NCBI GenBank assembly: GCA_030407085.1
Contig: CM059586.1
Span: 92,191,501 to 92,255,500 of the forward strand
Reading direction: 5' to 3'
Source of the DNA: Trichopria drosophilae
Taxonomy: Eukaryota > Arthropoda > Insecta > Hymenoptera > Diapriidae
DNA length: 64,000 nucleotides
Under the pieces are notes generated by a model. The model worked only from the letters and a program-made list of their open reading frames with translations. It did no database searches and had not been told where the DNA came from. Shown in pieces: positions 1,084 through 32,200 of the stretch (the stretch's first letter is position 1; every line of letters starts with the position of its first letter). A program made the translations under genes and the position numbers.

Positions 1084-1945
1084 CCACTTCAGTGGTAGCT
1101 GTTTAAAAGTGCCAGAAGTGGTACAGCCCTGTACTTAAGATATCGAAAAACGGTGAAACACGGGTTCCATTTTTTCCTAAAATATATCATTTAACATTTA
1201 ATTAATCACTTAAAAAATCAAGTAATATTTCACATTTATGTCGGCCATCTTGGATCCACCATTTTGAATTTTCAAAATCTGATTTCAGATTTATAACCAG
1301 CGGCCCCGAAAACCCACGAGAACCCAGTTTCATAAAGTTTGGATAATTTTTCGCATTTCGGTCGGCCATCTTGGATCCGCCATTTTGAATTTTCAAAATC
1401 TAACTTCAGATTCGTAATCAGCGACCCCGAAAACCCCCGAGTAACAATTTTCAGCAGTTTTCCATATAAAGAAAAATGTGCGCCGCACATTTTAATAAAT
1501 TTAGCAAATTTACAGCCGCCATATTGGATCCGCCATTTTGAATTTTCCCATTTTGACGACAGATTCGGATTCAGCGACCCAAAATATCTTGGTATACGAA
1601 GTTTCATGCAAATTCATTAATAATTGTAAAAGTTATTGCAAAATGTACACATATGATCCATTACCACGTTTGTCAATAATTTTTTTTGTACATACAGTAG
1701 TCCTTCCCTTATTCTAATTTTCCCCTCTCCCCCACTACTTAGATTTGCTGTCTCACTTTTGTCTCCTTTTCTTTTGTTGCACATGCGCCGTTATTTGTAT
1801 TTAGAAAATCCACACGTCAACAGATATCAGTGGAGAAAATGCGTGAGGGGAAATATTAGAATAGGAGAAGAGAAAAAATTAGAATACGGGAAGACATTAG
1901 AATAAGGGAAGGACCACTGTATATGATCCATTACCATTGAAGTGG
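1084..1945. mobile_element. TTAA-flanked non-autonomous DNA element inserted in the RT relic
   Basis: Direct TTAA repeats at 1080-1083 and 1946-1949 bound inverted ends CCACTTCAGTGGTA and TACCATTGAAGTGG (mismatch in the middle). TTAA target duplication is the hallmark of piggyBac-type transposition. Inside are about three copies of a 120-130-bp module (about 1240-1600) containing GCCATTTTGAATTTTC and CAGCGACCCCGAAAACC. It has no transposase frame, so it would need a source elsewhere. A 225-bp MITE (1695-1919) has inserted into it. Confidence 0.75.
1695..1919. mobile_element. MITE with CAGTRGTCCTTCCCTTATTC inverted ends
   Basis: Inverted termini of about 24 bp (one mismatch near the tip) are flanked by TA on both sides (1693-1694, 1920-1921), as expected for a Tc1/mariner-type element. 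It carries no coding capacity. A second member of the family is at 55363-55612. Confidence 0.75.
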
Positions 1946-2425
1946 TTAATAACAAGTGGTTCACTGAATCGAAAGCCTTTGGAAAATCGAGATAGATACT
2001 GTCTACTTGATAACTACTATCCAATGATTCGGAAATGAAAGCTGTGAATAATAATAGATTAGTTATCACCGATCGACCCTTGATGAAACCGTGTTGCAAA
2101 GAAGATATTTTTGAAAATAAAAAATTACTTAATTTATTAGTAATGATAGCGTCAAATACTTTAGGGATAACACTAATTATGGAAACTGGACGATAATTTT
2201 TAATGTTTTGCTTATCGCCTTGTTTGAAAATAGGAGTACTACAATTTTGGAAAGATCCCTTGGTTCAAAGATTTATTGAATGAACGGTTCCATCAATGAC
2301 AATTGACAATTTTTTATGAAACACGGTGGGATGCTATCCGGACCACAATTAAAACTATTATCTAATTTAGACACTGCTTCCATAAAATCCTTACAGTCTA
2401 TTGTAAAATTTGATAAAATATCGAT

Positions 2426-4192: not shown

Positions 4193-7100
4193 GTAAGTTT
4201 ATGGGCATATCTCCAGAACTTTTAAACTTTCGGTTATCATACATTACGATACGTTATTGAAACATAATTTAATAAACCTTTGTGCTCTTTAAATGTATCA
4301 TGTGTTTAATAATGACTATAATAAAAGTGAAGCTGGAAAAGGTAAGTTTATATATGGGCATATCTCTAGAACTTTTAAACTTTAGGTTGTCGTACATTAC
4401 AATACGATTATCAAAAAAATTTTGAAATATAATTTAACCCTTTGCAGCGCAGTGGTAACCCAGATTACCACCTTTTTAATTCACATCTTTTCTGTCTAGT
4501 TTCAATGCTTTCGAAGCAATATTCAAAAAATCTTTTTACAGTGGTAGAGGGGGCTTTTTAATACGTAACGAAAAGGATAATAAATGCAATTACGCAAAAT
4601 TATTAACAAGTATAAATAAATAAATTTAAAAAATCGTCGATTTTTTAGAAAGAAATCGTTTTTGAACGAACTAAAAGGTAAATTAGAACCAAATTTGGTA
4701 CTCGGAGGTTTTTGGTCGCTGATTACGAATTTGAAGTCGGTTTTGAAAAATTCAAAATGGCGGATGAATTTTTAAAAATTCATCTGATTTACTTGAAACT
4801 CGTTACTCGGGTGTTTCTGGGGTCGCCGATTACGAATCTGGCCTCGGATTTTGAATATTCAAAATGGAGGATCCAAGATGTCCGATCGAAATATGAAAAT
4901 GTACCCGATATTGATGAAGCTGTGTACTCGGGGTTTTTTGGGGTCGCTTATTACGAATCTGATCTCTGACTTTTATATTTAAAATTCCGAGTACATAGAG
5001 TATCAATCTCTATCAAGTAAATTTTTACATTTATGTAGGCCATCTTGGATCCACCATTTTGAATTTACAAAATCTGACTTCAGATTCGTAATCAGCGACC
5101 CCGAAAACCCCCGCGTAACAATTTTCATCAAAATCAAGTAAATTTTTTACATTTATGTCGGCCATCTTCGAGCCGCCATTTTGAATTTACAAAATCTGAC
5201 TTCAGATTCGTAATCAGCGACCCCGAAAACCCCCGCGTAACAATTTTCAGTTGTTTTCCGTATAAAGAAAAATGTGCGCCGCAAAGGGTTAATAAAACCT
5301 TTGTGCACTTTAAATGTATCAAGTGTTTAATAATGACTATAATGCGTAGGAACCAATGAGTGTAAATGAAACTATTCGACATTTTCTTGTGAGTGACAAG
5401 GTTTGTTTTTTTTTAGTTTAAACACCATAACTTTTTTAACAAAGAATTCTATCCCTTGTAGCTTATAACATAAGTAGTTGGAGATATAAGTAAATAAAAA
5501 AGCCTTGAAACAAGGTTGTGTTACACATAGAAATTAAATTATACACCTTCAAACTTGGGGGACAACTTTTTTTTAAATTTTACAAATTAGAACTAACCTA
5601 GAATAACGTTTATAACAAAATTTCTACACGATCGTGCAACGAGATTGCATTATCCATAGAATAAGTAATTTTAACCCGAATACGAATGTGTGCCACCTAT
5701 AGATAGGCACGGTGAATTTGGACTAAGTTCAACCCAAAAGTTAATGTACATCGCAGTTTTCTTTTGGAATTACTTTAGGGTGGTAGACTGATTATTTTAA
5801 GCCCAAAATGAAAATAATTGCCAAATTCAAGAATAGTTACTTACAGTGGCGCTCAAAAATATAGAGCCACCTCTAAATGTGAAAATGAATATTGTTTTGG
5901 ATTAAGGTACTTGAGTTCCGCGCAAAGTACATTACTTAGTTGTTTTCAGACAATGGTACAGAACGTTTCAAAGTGTGTTTGCTATCGATAATCCAGTTTT
6001 AAAGACTAATACTGTTAAAATCGATTTAAAGGTTAGTAATAATTAGGGTCAAAATAATAGAGCCACTTTAAACTGTAAGCATTTTAAATATTTTTATCAA
6101 CTCTAATATATTATTTTTACTACTATTTGTAAATAATTAATCACCCACCTTCATTTACTAGCAATGTTGTTGTTGCTTTTATTGTAGATGGGGAGAGCAA
6201 AGCATACAAGTGACGATGAACGTAAACAAATATTTCAATTATATAAACATGATTTATCGATGAATAAAATAGCACAACTTTTGCATGTTTCGCGGAAACG
6301 TATTCAAAATGCGATTAAGAAATCAAAAGAAACAAAAATACCAATTGATAATCGAGGAAGACCTCGAAAAACTTGTGCACGTATGGATCGAAAAATTACA
6401 CTAGAAGTGAAAAAAGACCCATTTTTGACTGCACCACGCCTTAAAGACATTTTATTCAACGAAAACAATATAAAACTGTCAACATCAACAATAAAAAGAA
6501 GATTGTGTGATGCGAAGATTAACGGTCGCATTTCTAAGAAAAAGCCACACGTATCGAAGCAAAATATTCGAAAAAGATCAGCGTTTGCTATTGTAGTAGC
6601 TCTATTTTTTTGAGCGCCACTGTAGAACTAAATTTTTCAGTAACTCCGAAAGTTCAGACCGTCTTTTTTCACGTTCCTGATTTTTGTAAAAAAAACCCAA
6701 TGCGGTCTCGGATTTTATAGTGAGCAAGTAATTGAATCAGTTCATTCCGATTTCAAAACTATATGGACAAAATATAAAGTTTCCAATGATCACTCCGATT
6801 ACCTGACACGACTACTTTGAGCTGTTTGTGAATATAATAGTCTTCACATGATGTAAATTTTATAATTAATTTATTTTGTGATTGTTGTAATCAAATATCT
6901 AAGATAAAAAGTTAAAATCATTAAAAAAGATGAAAATCGATCGAAAAGATCGATTATTTTCTTTTTGGTCTTAAAATAATCAGTCTACCACCCCAAAGTA
7001 ATTCCAAAAGAAAACAGTAATGTAGATTAACTTTTGGGTTGAATTAAATTTAAAAAATCGCTAATAAAAGGGAAAAATCAAGTTAATTTCAGTTTCTCTC

Positions 7101-17112: not shown

Positions 17113-18724
17113 ATATGGGTCAATCAAACTGTTGTCGGTAAGAAATAACGTAAGTATATGACATTTTTTACATATTATTGATGAAATAAATGTATAGAAA
17201 GTGTTAAAATAATGAATATCTGAAATAGAACAAAAACATTAATTTGTAATATAATCCAATTTAGTTAGGTGCACTCATCAATTTACACGAGCTGTTAATA
17301 TTTATGGCTTCCATTACTTCATTTTTAGGATGTCATAAGAAACAGGAGAACTAAATGCAAATTATCCATGTACTGTACACTTGTAAACTTTTCACTACCT
17401 ATTTACTATCGAATTTTATTTCTTCGCACAGTTCCAAAATTTGACATAATATCTTTACAATGAAACGTAGATGCAAATGTAAAATATGTTTCTAAGTGAA
17501 ACGAATAGGTTTAATAACTTACATTAAGTGAACACAAATAAAATTTCAAAATCTATATTCTATAAATCAATATGTTTGGTATCAACAAAAATTCAGATCT
17601 TTTTGCATATCACCATTGAGGCTTTAAAGAATCGATTTCAATCGTTGATTGAATAAATTTGAAATTATTTTATCAAATAAATAAATATTCTTTCCTTAGG
17701 CACACCCCTCGCCTCCCGTAAGCGCGAGCTAGAGGTAACTTAGGTTTTCGAAAATCGCCAAAATATGTTCTTTATTCATCAACTTTATATCAGCCCTGAC
17801 GAAAATTTTCTCCAAAAACGTATGTTTAGTTTTACATCATCTTTAAAATAACTGTATCATTCAGTAATCGAGAAACATGAAGAAACTGAACGTTTAATGT
17901 AATTTGATATAATAGTATAATTAAAATTAAAAATATATATATAACTTTGCAACAAAAGAGTAACGACCCTTTTCAAAAAAGATTTTGCAGCTTTTGAATT
18001 GTAATATTAATAAAAAATAGCCAGAGATATCTGCTAAACAAATTGAAAGCTTTATTTGTGTAGTTACAAGATATCCTGTCATTCTTTCAATATCATCAAA
18101 GGATTCAGAGATATGGGCAAATCTCCAGAACCTTTAGATTTAGCGTTATTTGTATTTTATCGTCACTTAGACAAAGTACTACGACGAAGTAATCCTTAAA
18201 GTATATCGTCCATATATTTGTATTAAGTTCCATCATAGAAACTCATTACAACGCATAAAAAACTTGTCAAAATGTCGCCCTTCGTCACATGTAATTTCCA
18301 CATTTTTCTTCCGTTTAGTAAACATTATTTTTACAAACAACGCTACATTACTTTCGTATTGAAATATATTGTTCATGAAGGTTTGAAGAATTCAATGTTA
18401 TGTTTGTTAATTATATACTCTTTGTTGTAAATGAGCTGTAATATCCAAAAATTTGTTATCAAGTTTTCTTGTAGCATCCGAAATGCTCCATGGTTAGGTA
18501 CATCGCACAATGAAATTAGAATAAAACAATGGTCTTTTTAACTCACAACAAAGTATTATTTCAGTGCATCTGTGCACGAAAGCCTACAAAGATTAGAATC
18601 GCTTTTCATTCATCTTTTTGAATTTATAATAGCGAAATTACTTGCGGACAAATTCAATGTCGCCGCCGCAATCAGGTATGCTTCGTCCAAAAGATACAAA
18701 ATTAGAAAAGTAATATTTTCAAAA
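17113..18724. other. AT-rich intergenic sequence
   Basis: Nothing certain. A GGGCAAATCTCCAGAACCTTTA-like phrase at about 18115-18137 recurs in the myotubularin intron (about 4205) and inverted near 20870 and 9700, so it is a dispersed repeat. One exon-like stretch is at 18565-18675. Confidence 0.4.
18565..18675 (+). other. exon-like open stretch between AG and GT
   Basis: A pyrimidine-poor but valid acceptor (TATTATTTCAG) and a donor (CAG/GTATGC) bound 111 nt. It is open in one frame for 36 codons, reading HESLQRLESLF then AKLLADKFNVAAAI, an amphipathic-helix-like peptide. I recognise no family and see no partner exon. Confidence 0.2.
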
Positions 18725-18737
18725 GACATATAAATGT
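18725..18737. repeat. left 13-bp target-site duplication
   Basis: GACATATAAATGT here is repeated exactly at 19397-19409, immediately outside the 659-bp ribozyme-bearing insertion. Confidence 0.8.
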
Positions 18738-18744
18738 AATAATA

Positions 18745-18867
18745 ATACTGGGTTTTTATTTGGTGATCGTCTTACCAAGCAATCGCATTGTATTATTATT
18801 AATTAAAAGCGGTCAAGAAGTTAATTATTACAATTAAACATACCGTTTAATTGTATCAATATTATGA
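18745..18867 (+). repeat. left direct terminal repeat of the ribozyme element
   Basis: About 122 bp, starting around ACTGGGTTTTTATTTGG and ending ATCAATATTATGA. It matches 19274-19398 almost throughout. Confidence 0.88.
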
Positions 18868-19016
18868 TTTATTCACGGATTACAACGTTCAAAACACTAA
18901 GATCTTTAGTTTTGAACGAATTTGATTATTTTTCATTATCGGAAACAATGTCCCTTTACTTCATGATAATGAAAAATAAATATCTCGTTTTTTTCATTTA
19001 CAACATTAATTATCAC

Positions 19017-19083
19017 TGCGTCCAGGGTAAGGATGCCGAAAACCCTGCTGATGAGCACATACGGCATCCTGGTGCGAAACGCA
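19017..19083 (+). ncRNA. type III hammerhead ribozyme with kissing loops
   Basis: This is a self-cleaving RNA motif. Stem III pairs 19017-19020 (UGCG) with 19080-19083 (CGCA). The cleavage triplet is GUC, with the scissile bond after C19022. Stem I pairs CAGGG (19023-19027) with CCCUG (19043-19047). The core CUGAUGA is 19048-19054. Stem II pairs GCAC (19055-19058) with GUGC (19072-19075), followed by GAAA (19076-19079). Every invariant nucleotide is present and all 13 stem pairs are Watson-Crick. Loop I (15 nt) and loop II (13 nt) are complementary over nine contiguous pairs (19030-19038 with 19062-19070), far more than the few contacts common in natural hammerheads. The short open stem III suggests low activity as a monomer or action as a dimer, as in other metazoan retroelement ribozymes. 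Confidence 0.93.
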
Positions 19084-19273
19084 TTTCTGCAATAGTTTGT
19101 AATATTAGAATCAAATTTAAGCGCTGGAGGGACTTTATAAATTAATTAAACCCATTAACAGTCGAGTCAATTTTGGTCCATATAAGTATTTTCAGAGCGC
19201 GAAACGTTGTATTGCAATCGCAATCACGTTGTATATATATTTTTCCCCGTTTTATTTTTGTAATTGAACTTGT

Positions 19274-19398
19274 ATATTGGGTTTTTATTTAGTGACCGTC
19301 TTACCAAGCAATCGCATTGTATTATTATTAATTAAAAGCGGTCAAGAAGTTAATTATTACATTTAAACATACCGTTTAATTCTATATCAATATTATGA
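19274..19398 (+). repeat. right direct terminal repeat of the ribozyme element
   Basis: Second copy of the 18745-18867 repeat, slightly diverged. It overlaps the first two bases of the right 13-bp duplication. Confidence 0.88.
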
Positions 19399-19409
19399 CA
19401 TATAAATGT
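19397..19409. repeat. right 13-bp target-site duplication
   Basis: Exact match to 18725-18737. Confidence 0.8.
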
Positions 19410-21430
19410 GTTATTGACAAATAGGTGCTTGTACATCTCAACCACGTTTATATTTACACTTTTATTTATAAAAATTCGCAAATGTAACTGTCGCAATCCT
19501 GAATTTTGACATTCTATATGAACATTGCCCCAAATCGATAAATTCTGAACTGCCATTGTCTTATAAGTTCAAAATATTAACCGGCGAAATAGATCGTTTG
19601 AAGGAACTAAAATGGTTAAATCTACGAAGAAAACGAGAAGAAATCAGAAAATAGGAAGAGCTGAGAAATGAAATGAAAACAGATAAAAATGTACTTTGCA
19701 ACATTGGTATTTGCATTTTTACGACTGTGATGCAGCATTCTTAGATTTGGAAACCATGCCCCATTGTATATTTCGAAATCTGAAAACTGAAAACTGATTC
19801 TTTTGTTTCAGAACGTATCGTACATTTTAGTACTATTCTCTATAATATTAATCTACTAAGCCCATAAATTTCAGTCTGACATTTGACGTCAATTTCTACG
19901 AATGTCGCCCTTCCATAGGATGCCGAATTTTCAGAACTGAACTTCCACTCTGCCTGCTTCCCTCTTTGACTATATCCCTGCCTACTGCCGACTGCATTTC
20001 CCACCATAGTTCTCCATGAAATCGTCGAAATTCCGGATTGGTTGTTTATACAAATTGAAGAAGTTTAGTAGATTATCTACAGTGGTATTAGTCTATATTA
20101 ATAAGGTAAAAAAATATTTCAACTCCTAATAAGTGTTTGTCAGGAAGATTTTCCCTTTTTTCTAATGGTTTTTTTGTTGTTTTCTTTTTTCTAAACTGTT
20201 TTCTTTTTTCTAAACGTTTTCCTTTTTTCCTTTTTGCTTTGTTCCATTGATTCGATCGATCTCCCTTTCACCCTTCCCTTGCATTGTCGTTGCTTTTCCT
20301 TTTATCGTTTACCGTTCCTATATAAGGTGTTTCCCATTTGATTTCATCCAGTCTCCAACTGGTATTCTGGATAGCTCGGCAGTAACCCCTGGTCACTTGA
20401 TGCAGACTCTCCGCAGGTATTTTGGCAAAAAATATTACAGAGATCAGTTAAGAAGTACGAAATTTCTATTTCAATCATATTTAATTAGTATAATTTATAT
20501 TTAATTATATTTTTGCAAGTGCTTTGCCTAAGCCTTCGATGTTTGACCCCTCCACTAACAATAGACATGTTACGAAAGGTACAGAAAGAGAGCAACTTGC
20601 CGACGGAAATAAAGAATGTTTGAAATTTAAAGGAGATGGTTGTATAAATGTATAAAATAAGCAAAGAAATAAGCAGGGACTCGGGTGTCCTGAGCGAGCG
20701 TTAGCGAGTGAAGATATAAAGCTAGTTTAATATTAATATAACAGGCACTGGCACTCGCTTAAGAGTTGCTCATGAATAAATATCTATTTCTGAATGTATC
20801 AAGCAACGGTATAAAAAAAATCAGAAGTGTGCTTGCATCTTTATTTTTAAAAAATGTCAGCTTCAAAATTGAAAGGTTCTGAAGATTTGCCCATATGACA
20901 AGATTTGACGACATGCAAAGTATAATTTATATGTTTTATATTTTGCAACTACGTTTTATTACGCATAGATCAGAAATCAATAATCAAATAAAGGATAGTA
21001 CTAAATACTCACAGATATCGTGATGTGAAGAACTAGAACTCTTACCAATCCTTTGTCCTCTTCTCCGCGACACAAACTTAATATACAACGTCATGCAAAT
21101 TGAAAAACACACAAAATTAATATAAACAAAACAATTAAATGATTCTTTTTCTACGATTTTCTTATTTTTCTTGTTGGCCTTCTAAAATACGACCACCTCT
21201 AAACAAAGTTTCTTATAAAAAATCACACCATTACAATTTGAAAAGGGGATTCAGATAGACAAAATTCAAACGTTTAACTTGTTACAAATTGATCTGTGAC
21301 TTCACAACATATAAACTACACCGGTATATCACCATTTTCTCGTAACAAATTAAATTTGTTAAATTTTCTCCTTCATCAAACATCCTTTTTCCCATAAAAA
21401 TATCCAATCAACTATAAAACTTTATAAAAC
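19410..21430. other. intergenic DNA with pyrimidine-rich tract
   Basis: No gene is supported. 20145-20245 is a T/C-rich tract with repeated TTTTCTTTTTTCTAAAC phrases. An inverted copy of the GGGCAAATCT phrase lies near 20870-20900. Confidence 0.45.
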
Positions 21431-21974: not shown

Positions 21975-23297
21975 TCGACGCCTCCTACGAAGAATGCAAC
22001 AGTTCAGATCTTCTATGAAGAACGCTACATTCCGATGTTGTTAATTGAAGAAAATATAACTATTCAAATTTTGTGGATAAGAACGCTACATTTCAGATTT
22101 CGGGACGAAGAAGGCAACATTTCAGTTTCCTTTGAGAAAGAACGGTACATTTCAAAAATTTTGATGAAGAATGCTACATTTCAGTTTCCTTTGAGAAAGA
22201 ACGCTACATTTCAAAATTTTTGACAAAGAATGCTACATTTTAGTTTTCATTGGACAAGAGTAGTATGTTTTAAAATTCACAATTAAAAAATCATTAATCA
22301 TTGACATATTACGTACACAGATATAACGAAATTGTTGCGTCAATATAACTGAATGGTCGCCCCATTCGTGGTTATCTTAAGTAACTTTTCTTTCCATGCA
22401 ATACAGACGAGCACTTAGAATACTGTTAGAATGAGATTGAATTTGGGATACAACCCATACGCAAAATAATATAATTGCAAAAATATTATTTTTTTGCCGT
22501 TTTATTATATTTTAATATAATTAATTTATATCTTTCATTTCTATTGTTGGACGTTCAATTTTTAGTTATATTGCCCAAAAGAATGTACCATAATTTTCAA
22601 GAATCAGGTATTTTTATTTGCAAAATAAAAATAATAAAATATATAAAAGAAAAATAATTATCTACTTTTTAAATTATATATTTTTCCATGGGGGAAGTTG
22701 CAGGTCGAAATTAGACCAAACTGATTGTGGTTAAAAATGATCCACAAAAAAAATATCCTCACCATTTTGTTCATTTTTTGCATATAAAAGAAAAAAATAC
22801 AAGTTAGAACTTTGTAAAACACTTAGTTCTGCTTCTTGAAACGAACCGATAAAAAATCAAAGTAGCTTGGAACGAGAACTAAAAAGTTAATTTGTTAATT
22901 AACGATTGTCCAAAAGATTTTATTTTTTATTTCTTCCTGCAGAAATTAAAGATGTGTCTAGATCCACGAATGATGAGTTTTTTTAAACATACGATTTTAG
23001 AGATGGTTAACGCAAAGTTTACCTTTAGTTCGTTTAGGAGGGAGTTAAAAGGGGATAGGGAGGGTCTGTTTGCAGACTCAACTATGTTCAAGCAAAACTG
23101 TCAAGTTTTTCGTCGAACATTTCTGAAATGTGCCGTTCTTCGTCGGACAATCTGAAATGTAGCATTTTGCGTCGGAAATTTTGAAATGTCGCATTCCTCG
23201 ACTGACAAACTGAAATGTTGTATTCTTCGTCGCAAACCAAAGTCTTACATTCTTCATAGAAGATCTGAACTGCTGCATTCTTCGTAGGAGGCGTCGA
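21975..23297. mobile_element. large inverted-repeat element with minisatellite arms
   Basis: The left end TCGACGCCTCCTACGAAGAA and its inverted copy (to 23297) match for about 50 bp. Both arms then continue as a degenerate array of GAAGAANGCTACATTTCAG units in opposite orientations (left to about 22250, right from about 23100). The 850-bp centre is AT-rich and without a recognisable gene. A target duplication could not be defined. Confidence 0.75.
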
Positions 23298-29231: not shown

Positions 29232-32200
29232 CTGAAAAATGACGCATTTGCTTGTAAGGTTGATTAAATTTATGAATATCGAAGTTATTTGGCTAATTCA
29301 AAAACAATACCTTCATTGCGACGTATTCATACTGATCCACCCTAAGCCGCCGAAGGTTATTCGTGAAGGCTAACATCCGTTCGATACACGTAGCTAAACC
29401 AAGTTGCCTCGCTTGTTCCAGAGTAATTGACTTACCAAGGGATACACGAATCTCGCCAGGAGTGCTCATGCTTCGAAAGCAACATGAAAACAATAACAAT
29501 TCGCACCACGAATTGATCAGCAAACATATTTGATCATCGATGGAGATATTTTTGAAAAGAGGGAGGCTTTTGCACCACTTGACAATTTTATAAAGTCTAT
29601 GATCGGCGATATTGCACAAATTGGACAAGAAGTCCGGTTGCTGCGTCGAGTTATTGGTTGGGGGATTCAATACGGACGCCGGTGGCGAATGCTGATGTTC
29701 GTGGTTTGTGGATGCGGAATCTGTAGAACTTGGTCTTGGCGGCTCACTACGGTTAATGTTTCCATTGACGCTACTACTTAGGCCATTCGAACTACCACTA
29801 ATCGAATCAGCACTGCTGCTGCCACTAGGGCAACCTGAGGAATTCATTCCCTGGCCTCCTAGTCTGTCATTGTCGTTATAGTGCCAGAGATGTTCGACAT
29901 CCATGATGTCCTGCAATAACTGTGGCACTACTTGCATTTTATGGGAATGATTTGAGTGATGCTTCATCGAATGGTGATGCTCGGAGCCTGGAGGAGCGGG
30001 ACTGCATGCGCCGCTAGACAACTTATCGCCCGTCATGCCACCCGCGTTACTCCCCATAAGATTCGCTGGGAGCGTATAAGTGCATTGATAGGTACTCCTC
30101 CCTCCTCGAGTTCGATCCTCCCTTATTGCCTCGAGCTTCATTCCCATGTTCAGGCACTTGTCGAAGCGGCAGGCTGGACACTTCTTTCTCGTCGCTACTG
30201 TCACGGGACACCTTGCCCCTCTAAGGCATACGTAATTCTTACGGTTTTGTACCGTTCGTTTGAAGAACCCTTTACAAGACTCGCAAGAGAAAATTCCATA
30301 GTGGAAGCCACTAATTTTGTCTCCGCATATCGGGCACGGGCTATTTATCAACTGTTGCCTTGTTGAGATTCCGGACGGGGCCGACGGTATCCGACAGTCG
30401 TCCTGGTCGTCCAAGTGACCTTCCGATGAAACTTCGGAACCAGGCGTTGAGTAATGATGACTCGAACCTCCCGAAGACGTGGAAAGATGTAGTGGGCTAC
30501 CTTGTGGCACCTGGTGATGATGCTGAGGATGGGCGTGTCGCGGTTGCTGTACAGGTGAATGTGTAGGTGGACTAAGCGAACCGTAGCTGTAGCAACTGCT
30601 CGAAGCATCGGAATTATTTCGTGACAAGGAATGAGACAATGACAAAGACAATGATGATGTGGAATTGTTGAAACTATGACGAGACATCGACAGTGACGAC
30701 GAAGGCACTGGACTGCCAGGACCAAGAGCCGAATGCCTTGCCGCATGGGGACTCTGAGTAGGTGAACTGAATACACTATAGGCCGAGTGAATTGCTGAAT
30801 CCGGAGACGGTACCTGAGAAAAGAGTTAAAAGAAAAAGGTTCTGAAATAATCTATTTGAAAAATATTGAACTATATCGGCATGAAAAATAATACATACTT
30901 GAGATCTCGTATGGCTGTGTTTTGTGAGATGGTGTCTAGGATTGAGTACTGGGCTATGATTCGGTGTAGAACAATTATAACCACCAAGAAGCTTGCCAAC
31001 GAGTAAGGGCAGATCGCTTTGCTGTGCTTGTTCATGGCTTTCAGCACCCCGTTGCTGATGTTGCTGTCGATGCTGCTGTTGTTGAAGCTGTTGTGCGTGT
31101 GTTAAAGGTACAATGGTCTCGTTTAGTGAAGTTCCTAAAGCGAGTCCTGGACTTGACCGAAAGTCCGGCTCGGGTTTAATAGGAAATTTGTGTTCTTGAA
31201 GTCCTGGGCTCGAACTGCATACTTGGACTCCTTCCATTGACGTTTCCTCAAGGTCCTACCAAAATCAATTCACTTTTTATTGATATACAAACACAATATA
31301 AACTGCACAAATAAAACACAACGTTCTTTACAGAACAAGAAGACATGAAATAATAAGTTATTAAAATAATGATTGAAAATACCTGGTTAGTAATTGTATT
31401 GGAAGACATTTCTTGATCAGATAGCTCACCCTCCCAAGACATTGGTCTCTCTGGCTGTTGATGCATGATATCGCTACCATTTTCTTTATCGTGCGTTATT
31501 GACCTGTCTCTTTTCTTCTTTGTTCGAAGATTTACTCCGCGAAAATCAATTTTACTGATTTCTCCGTCACTATCATCGAGATCGTCGATATGAGGTGGTA
31601 CCGTCGAGTTGATGCTCGAGTCAACGGTATTCGTTGACGAACTGCAGCTCGACACAACTGATACGGTCACGCCATTTTGACCACCTAAATACTTAACACT
31701 TTTACCTAAGAACAATAATATTAATGAATTATTGGAACAAAGAAAAGTTAAATTTATAAAATAGGGAATATATGTTTAATTGCTCGTTAAACAAATTAGT
31801 TCTAGAGTTTAAATGGGTTGTTTAAAATATTTTACGGGATATTTGCATCATACAATCTTTTATTGCATAGTTCTCACGCAAGAAATTCTAACTAAAATAA
31901 TTCGACGAAGAAATTATAAACGAACGCCGTGTCGATTAGTTGACAAAGGTGCCCTAGGTATACGTTGCCTGTTTCCGGTCCCCTTGTACTTCCATCTCGG
32001 TGTGCGGAATGCGAAATTGAAAATACAACCACGGAGTTTATGCGCCTCGCTGCTTGTAATATATGCATGTGGACCGTCAAACGCGTTTCATGGCATGGGA
32101 CAGAATGGCGCAGAACGAGGAAGAAGAGAAAAGGCTAGTACTTCACGGCAGTCTGCTTTGAAGTCAGATTACGTGTTTTTTCGTGGGGTAAAGCACGCCT

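Follow-up and report, generated by a model that had tools for sequence, protein, structure and literature searches.

Hammerhead ribozymes in which stems I and II are joined by base pairing have been described before. Perreault et al. (2011; PMC3088659) predicted pseudoknots between these stems in ~40% of hammerheads, with lengths given in the available text as four or more, five or six pairs, and reported that mutation of a hammerhead pseudoknot lowered cleavage while compensation restored it. In the wasp Trichopria drosophilae a comparable link between the two stems is predicted, but with 9–12 pairs instead of four to six. The crystal structure of a pseudoknot hammerhead (PMC11300833) also has stems I and II joined by base pairing, although, according to the available text, with another connectivity: the 6-bp pseudoknot takes the place of helix II. 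De la Pena (2021; PMC7936874) reported insect-associated type III hammerheads, their loops 1 and 2 in Watson-Crick contact, from delta-like RNAs and from the genomes of a termite, Drosophila pseudoobscura and other dipterans. In the available part of that article the contact comprises approximately four pairs (GCCR with YGGC) and is made by an internal loop within an extended helix I, whereas the 9–12 pairs of the wasp lie between two terminal loops; its structure-based searches are stated there to have turned up nothing similar in some related insects, among which hymenopterans are named.

Small mobile elements that carry hammerheads are also known. Metazoan non-LTR retrozymes (Cervera and de la Pena, 2020; PMC7229834) resemble the wasp elements in being small low-GC hammerhead repeats, found as dimers to multimers, that are non-autonomous, are flanked by target-site duplications of more than 4 bp and have a proposed circular RNA intermediate. 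As far as the available text describes them, they differ in having type I hammerheads and demonstrated circles of ~170–400 nt, while the wasp elements have type III hammerheads and units of 496–529 bp known from DNA, and the 9–12-bp loop-loop helix is a feature of the wasp elements, unlike the type I group. Because its hammerhead is type III and not type I, the wasp element is a variant of the described metazoan retrozymes and not a member of that group. Plant LTR retrozymes, in the accounts available, share with it the type III hammerhead, the non-autonomous nature and a similar unit size (circles of 600–800 nt), but their features include LTRs, duplications of 4 bp and a loop II of 4 nt that makes non-Watson-Crick contacts; the wasp element lacks LTRs with 4-bp duplications and has 10–17-bp duplications, a hammerhead outside the terminal repeats and long pairing loops. 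The pDo500 repeat of Dolichopoda cave crickets (PMC2837043) is likewise an insect repeat of ~500 bp with a hammerhead, but it was described as satellite DNA, and the words kissing, pseudoknot and tertiary have 0 occurrences in the available text. Loop-loop pairing and animal retrozymes are already known, and what is new here is a long-helix type III variant of both. The literature that we searched, with subscription journals and preprints mostly outside it, gave no report of a 9–12-bp loop helix and no type III hammerheads in hymenopteran retrozymes, and the available text of the T. drosophilae genome paper (PMC11192535) has 0 occurrences of the term hammerhead.

A type III hammerhead and its copies in the genome

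Direct reading of the window, the whole 64,000-nt stretch of T. drosophilae DNA that we analysed (C5:92191501–92255500), revealed a complete type III hammerhead at positions 19017–19083, with all invariant core bases and three perfect stems. GUC (RUH), CUGANGA, GAAA, stems I–III and an open stem III are present in the window motif and in alignments A1 and A2; it is the opening of the helix at stem III that makes the motif type III. Nine bases of loop I are perfectly reverse-complementary to nine of loop II, so that the original prediction of an invariant core, three perfect stems and nine-base loop complementarity was borne out in full. The parts of the motif are the following:

19017–19083, + strand: type III hammerhead ribozyme (sequence; 311 pattern places against 3 in the control)
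19017–19021, + strand: 5' strand of stem III, TGCGT, with partner ACGCA at 19079–19083 (sequence)
19020–19022, + strand: GUC, with predicted cleavage after C19022 (sequence)
19023–19028, + strand: 5' strand of stem I, CAGGGT, with partner at 19042–19047 (sequence; alignment A2)
19030–19038, + strand: loop I strand of the loop-loop helix, AGGATGCCG (sequence; alignment A2)
19042–19047, + strand: 3' strand of stem I, ACCCTG (sequence)
19048–19054, + strand: core CTGATGA (sequence)
19055–19058, + strand: 5' strand of stem II, GCAC, with partner GTGC at 19072–19075 (sequence; alignment A2)
19062–19070, + strand: loop II strand of the loop-loop helix, CGGCATCCT (sequence; alignment A2)
19072–19075, + strand: 3' strand of stem II, GTGC (sequence)
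19076–19079, + strand: core GAAA (sequence)

The same prediction had taken a few non-canonical contacts to be the usual link between hammerhead loops, which holds for many hammerheads but not for the large share with predicted Watson-Crick pseudoknots, and had called a nine-pair loop helix unusual, which stands for its length but not for Watson-Crick loop pairing itself, already known at least from the available text of the same study (PMC3088659).

We then scanned the 936-Mb genome (509 contigs) for the motif. The relaxed pattern CGTCN{14,40}CTGATGAGN{12,38}GAAACG (in short form, CGTC...CTGATGAG...GAAACG) occurred at 311 places against 3 for the reversed control, the narrower pattern GCGTCCNGGG...CTGATGAG...CGAAACGC at 147 places against 0, and a pattern with the GTCC kind of stem II at 200 places against 0. 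The last of these partly overlaps the relaxed pattern, so the three counts are not to be summed. The scan that had been proposed for this assembly thus uncovered many copies with a conserved core.

The Rfam models were far less sensitive. Rfam 15 gave no match of any kind in the window at the gathering threshold and no hammerhead match around the motif at E values up to 5, and the motif falls short of the gathering score of RF00008, a model with short loops, although its core and stems are intact. Genome-wide, RF00008 produced 8 matches, 0 of them over the cut-off (68 of 124,751 candidates scored). In an all-Rfam scan of 20 loci, 5 matched RF00008 below the cut-off and 15 had no match at E values up to 1, each of these 15 having a hammerhead by our own parse.

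Several subfamilies could be told apart among the copies. One (L002, L004–L007) has the core CTGACGA and the loops GGGCCCGC / GCGGGCCC or near variants, and Rfam detects only this subfamily plus L001, L003 and L008. The frequent GTCC-stem subfamily has the loop II AAACGGGATCCT; its relative L001 has the loop I AGGGATCCTCGTTC, which could pair via a one-base bulge. Subfamilies with TGTC in stem III turn up among the GTCC-stem pattern matches.

Complementarity and covariation of the two loops

From the matches listed for the narrow and relaxed patterns, about the first 100 of each, we took 86 distinct sequences, of which three of unusual size were dropped. With G-U pairs allowed, contiguous loop pairs numbered at least nine in 48 of the remaining 83 distinct sequences among the matches listed and at least eight in 55. 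The other 35 of the 83 had fewer than nine loop pairs and are read here as decayed copies; loop I of the L072 unit is a decayed variant too. The commonest family among the matches listed has 12 loop pairs, formed by AGGATGCCGTAA with TTACGGCATCCT. Different loop I/loop II partners were found in other copies: GGCGATCAAG/CTTGATCGTC, GGCTGCCAG/CTGGTAGCC, GGGTCACCATA/TATGGTGACCT, GGCTGTTGG/CCAACAGCC, GGTGGTTGG/CCAACCACC, TCCTCTATG/CATAGAGGA and TGAGTGTGCA/TGCACACTCA. Stem I also differs between subfamilies (CAGGGT, CTGGGC, TAAGAC, TGAGGC), as does stem II (GCAC, GCAT, GTCC), and intact copies keep 9–12 complementary loop bases though stem I, stem II and both loops vary.

In 50 distinct sequences taken from the narrow-pattern matches listed, the longest stretch of pairing between the two loops (G-U pairs included) had a mean of 8.6 and reached at least nine in 29; when loop I was shuffled in the same sequences the mean run fell to 4.1 and 0.125% reached nine. 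We also compared partners between groups, using 15 representatives chosen by hand as intact. Pairing with their own partner was 9–12 in these, against a cross-group mean of 4.1, with 2 of 178 cross pairs reaching nine, and when partners were permuted among nine groups none of 3000 permutations attained the observed sum of 88 (highest, 76). The pattern controls, the loop I shuffles and the partner permutations together reject chance as the source of the loop complementarity.

Covariation was measured on alignment A2, made of 12 chosen rows; A1 was not used for pair counts because MAFFT had put five of its 15 subfamilies out of register in the loops. In A2, 96.8% of the cells pair, compared with 88.9% after shuffling. 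Nine pairs are altered on both sides (shuffled, 5.1; 2 of 500 shuffles reach nine), namely 6 of the 10 loop pairs, two stem I pairs and one stem II pair, and the cells altered on both sides amount to 25, against a shuffled mean of 7.2 and with 0 of 500 shuffles reaching that number. Further pair types in A2 showed no excess over the shuffles (15 vs 15.1). Sliding the partners by 1–3 columns lowered pairing to 26–40%. The eight loop pairs of columns 14–21 are intact in all 12 rows, while the outer loop pairs are not. Since stems I and II also have pairs altered on both sides, the hammerhead fold itself is maintained. The loop pairs hence covary between copies, the outcome on which the original prediction had staked itself.

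A comparison search with long-loop-II hammerhead patterns yielded 36 and then at least 120 stretches from IMG/VR and 41 from GTDB genomes, which were parsed for type III hammerheads only (stem I at least 5, stems II and III at least 4). Among these listed matches were 33 distinct type III hammerheads, from bacteria or viruses, whose longest loop runs were 1–5.

Possible kissed and nested forms of the loop-loop helix

The same loop pairs can form either a kiss between the two loops of the hammerhead or a nested hairpin that is incompatible with stems I and II, and covariation cannot separate the two because both topologies use the same base pairs. The original prediction had offered both readings, a lock on the active fold and a competing hairpin. 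In ViennaRNA, which folds nested structures only and gives the kissed fold no score, the hairpin beat the unkissed hammerhead by 11.1–16.5 kcal/mol in 13 sequences and was the minimum, or within 0.6 kcal/mol of it, in 12 of the 13, L003 falling 2.2 kcal/mol short. The loop duplex alone is worth 12.2–19.5 kcal/mol; when this energy is added to the hammerhead the two states come to lie near each other, before any steric cost. When three natural units of the element described below were folded as circles, the loop helix had a probability of 0.97–0.98 and stems I and II of 0.00.

These values favour the view that the helix serves solely to switch the ribozyme off, the nested hairpin blocking it, for instance in a circle, while the active fold uses other contacts. 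Two further observations point the same way. The helices reach 12 bp, more than a kiss requires or readily accommodates, and bases 2.1 and 10.2, which pair only in the hairpin, form a Watson-Crick pair in 79 of the 83 wasp sequences among the matches listed, compared with 11 of the 33 other type III hammerheads among the matches listed there (17 of 33 with G-U), a weak contrast because the wasp shows essentially two states that could go back to one event. Against a purely inhibitory helix, stem I/II pseudoknots stabilise the active fold of other hammerheads, as the available text of PMC3088659 describes, and the loop pairs conserved throughout A2 form a helix of a length that a kiss could hold. 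By A-form strand geometry, eight pairs make 0.73 turn and 12 pairs 1.09 turns, so the eight conserved pairs suit a kiss, whereas twelve, in a 13-nt loop, would exceed one full turn and need threading; the whole 12-bp helix may therefore be absent in the kissed state. We regard a role in inhibition only as unlikely.

Two lines of evidence speak for the kissed hammerhead: stems I and II are conserved together with the loop helix, and mutations of a hammerhead pseudoknot affected cleavage in published work. A partial or full kiss likely drives cutting during transcription. A switch combining both topologies is a more tentative proposal, which we think possible but rather doubtful: one helix of 9–12 pairs would kiss and permit cutting in transcription and would later form the nested hairpin that protects the closed circle. 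At that stage stems I and II would be removed and the core trapped, sparing the circle from being cut again. Selection for the hairpin state would explain a helix far longer than a loop-loop contact needs, and self-pairing through this same loop helix offers a simple candidate explanation of how a circle might escape its own ribozyme.

The insertion that carries the ribozyme

The hammerhead sits within a 659-bp insertion bounded by a 13-bp target-site duplication, GACATATAAATGT; the mobile element and its duplication were both absent from the original prediction. Its features are:

18725–18737, no strand: left target-site duplication GACATATAAATGT, identical to 19397–19409
18738–19396, + strand: retrozyme-like insertion, 659 bp, ~1.25 turns of a 529-bp unit (duplication, terminal repeats, genomic relatives)
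18745–18856, + strand: terminal direct repeat copy 1 (family D1), same part of the unit as 19274–19385
19274–19385, + strand: terminal direct repeat copy 2 (family D1)
19294–19348, + strand: GACCG ... AGCGGTCAAGAA block, which can form a stem near the 3' end of the element (four-family unit comparison)
19397–19409, no strand: right target-site duplication GACATATAAATGT, identical to 18725–18737

The terminal direct repeats are 112 bp long, 96% identical and 529 bp apart, a spacing that gives the insertion a 529-bp unit with one hammerhead, repeated ~1.25 times. Elsewhere the unit length is 496 bp (in a five-copy head-to-tail array at L069), 499, 512 or 517 bp; like retrozymes, these are small tandem repeats with one hammerhead per unit. 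In a comparison of four unit families, the only stretch outside the hammerhead that exceeded a 60% invariance cut was a block, AGCGGTC(A/G)AGAA, whose CGGTC can pair with the conserved upstream GACCG.

We next looked at the ends of the insertions at 30 loci, which represent 27 distinct insertions. Target-site duplications of 10–21 nt were found at 13 of the 27 (12 without the repetitive L016) and at 0 of 300 controls; at 13 bp, the duplication of the window surpasses the 4 bp that those of metazoan retrozymes exceed. L014, L022 and L029 each have an inverted piece inside one target-site duplication. In 17 of the 26 other distinct copies the right ends share one unit position (reference 650–663; 126 for L021), while the left ends vary in unit position. 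A preferred right end combined with variable left ends is what target-primed reverse transcription starting at a favoured 3' site leaves behind. All 26 aligned copies are contiguous across the predicted cleavage site, which differs from the preferred 3' site. The RNA that was copied was therefore probably a closed circle or, failing that, an uncut multimer; uncut linear multimers could have templated the insertions of more than unit length.

The hammerhead is less diverged than the rest of the element in 24 of 26 copies (means, 5.3% vs 9.7%; Wilcoxon p = 1.7e-4, the copies not being independent), the exceptions being L028, which is without most of the ribozyme, and L032. Ranked among 599 windows of 67 nt, the ribozyme takes 70th place for divergence, a rank that is lowered by L028, and the pairwise test is the stronger one.

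We consider it probable that this hammerhead serves as the self-cleaving domain in a non-autonomous family of retrozyme-like elements in the Trichopria wasp, with the following RNA-circle cycle. Tandem copies would be transcribed into multimeric RNA, in which each type III hammerhead would cut after its own GUC, with stems I and II held next to each other by the long Watson-Crick helix between loops I and II. The resulting monomers of ~500 nt would then be closed into circles, and the circles would be copied to DNA at new sites by a reverse transcriptase presumably made elsewhere, giving rise to target-site duplications of 10–17 bp.

Ordinary tandem satellite DNA, spread by DNA-level recombination with the ribozyme as a passenger, would account for head-to-tail arrays such as the five 496-bp units at L069, but not for single or partial copies that are dispersed and flanked by target-site duplications, with a favoured 3' end and 5' ends that vary, nor for the inverted pieces within one duplication at L014, L022 and L029, and we hold it to be very improbable. 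The least probable explanation, the integrated remains of an infectious delta-like or viroid-like circular RNA, is suggested by the type III hammerheads with loop 1/loop 2 pseudoknots that the available text of PMC7936874 describes in toad and termite delta-like RNAs, but units of ~500 bp lie far under the ~1,500–1,700 nt of delta-like agents and, at the loci scanned, the motif is on one strand only of each unit.

Other features were noted around the insertion and elsewhere in the genome. Inverted arms of 31 nt, 90% complementary and ~2.7 kb apart, lie around the retrozyme-like insertion at 18111–18141 and 20866–20896, and they may be the termini of a DNA transposon that received the insertion. 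Minisatellites at 22079–22246 and 23106–23236, ~1 kb apart and with periods of 29 and 58–59, have units that look like mutual reverse complements. Pfam matches identified a reverse transcriptase fragment (1827–2264, minus strand), a Tc3-like transposase fragment (6188–6613, plus strand) and a nuclear hormone receptor exon with zf-C4 and ligand-binding domains (29293–30825, minus strand), which we take to resemble insect HR39. On the chromosome contig C1 there is an uninterrupted bacterial-type COX1 (L073, G000:C1:729170–730507), presumably Wolbachia-like, which is either a symbiont gene transfer or an assembly join. A bacterial or viral origin of the window was rejected; the genome spans 936 Mb and contains wasp COI insertions, one nuclear copy of mitochondrial COI matching the COI of Trichopria (taxid 543384) with 100% identity over 400 residues.

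Taken as a whole, these elements widen the range of the hammerhead loop-loop contact from a few contacts to a 9–12-pair helix kept by covariation, and they extend animal retrozyme-like elements to ones with type III hammerheads, here in a hymenopteran, in a genome where hundreds of hammerheads are missed by current Rfam models. They also provide a set of naturally occurring subfamilies whose loop pairs are interchangeable, which makes the escape of a retrozyme circle from its own ribozyme directly testable with simple mutants.
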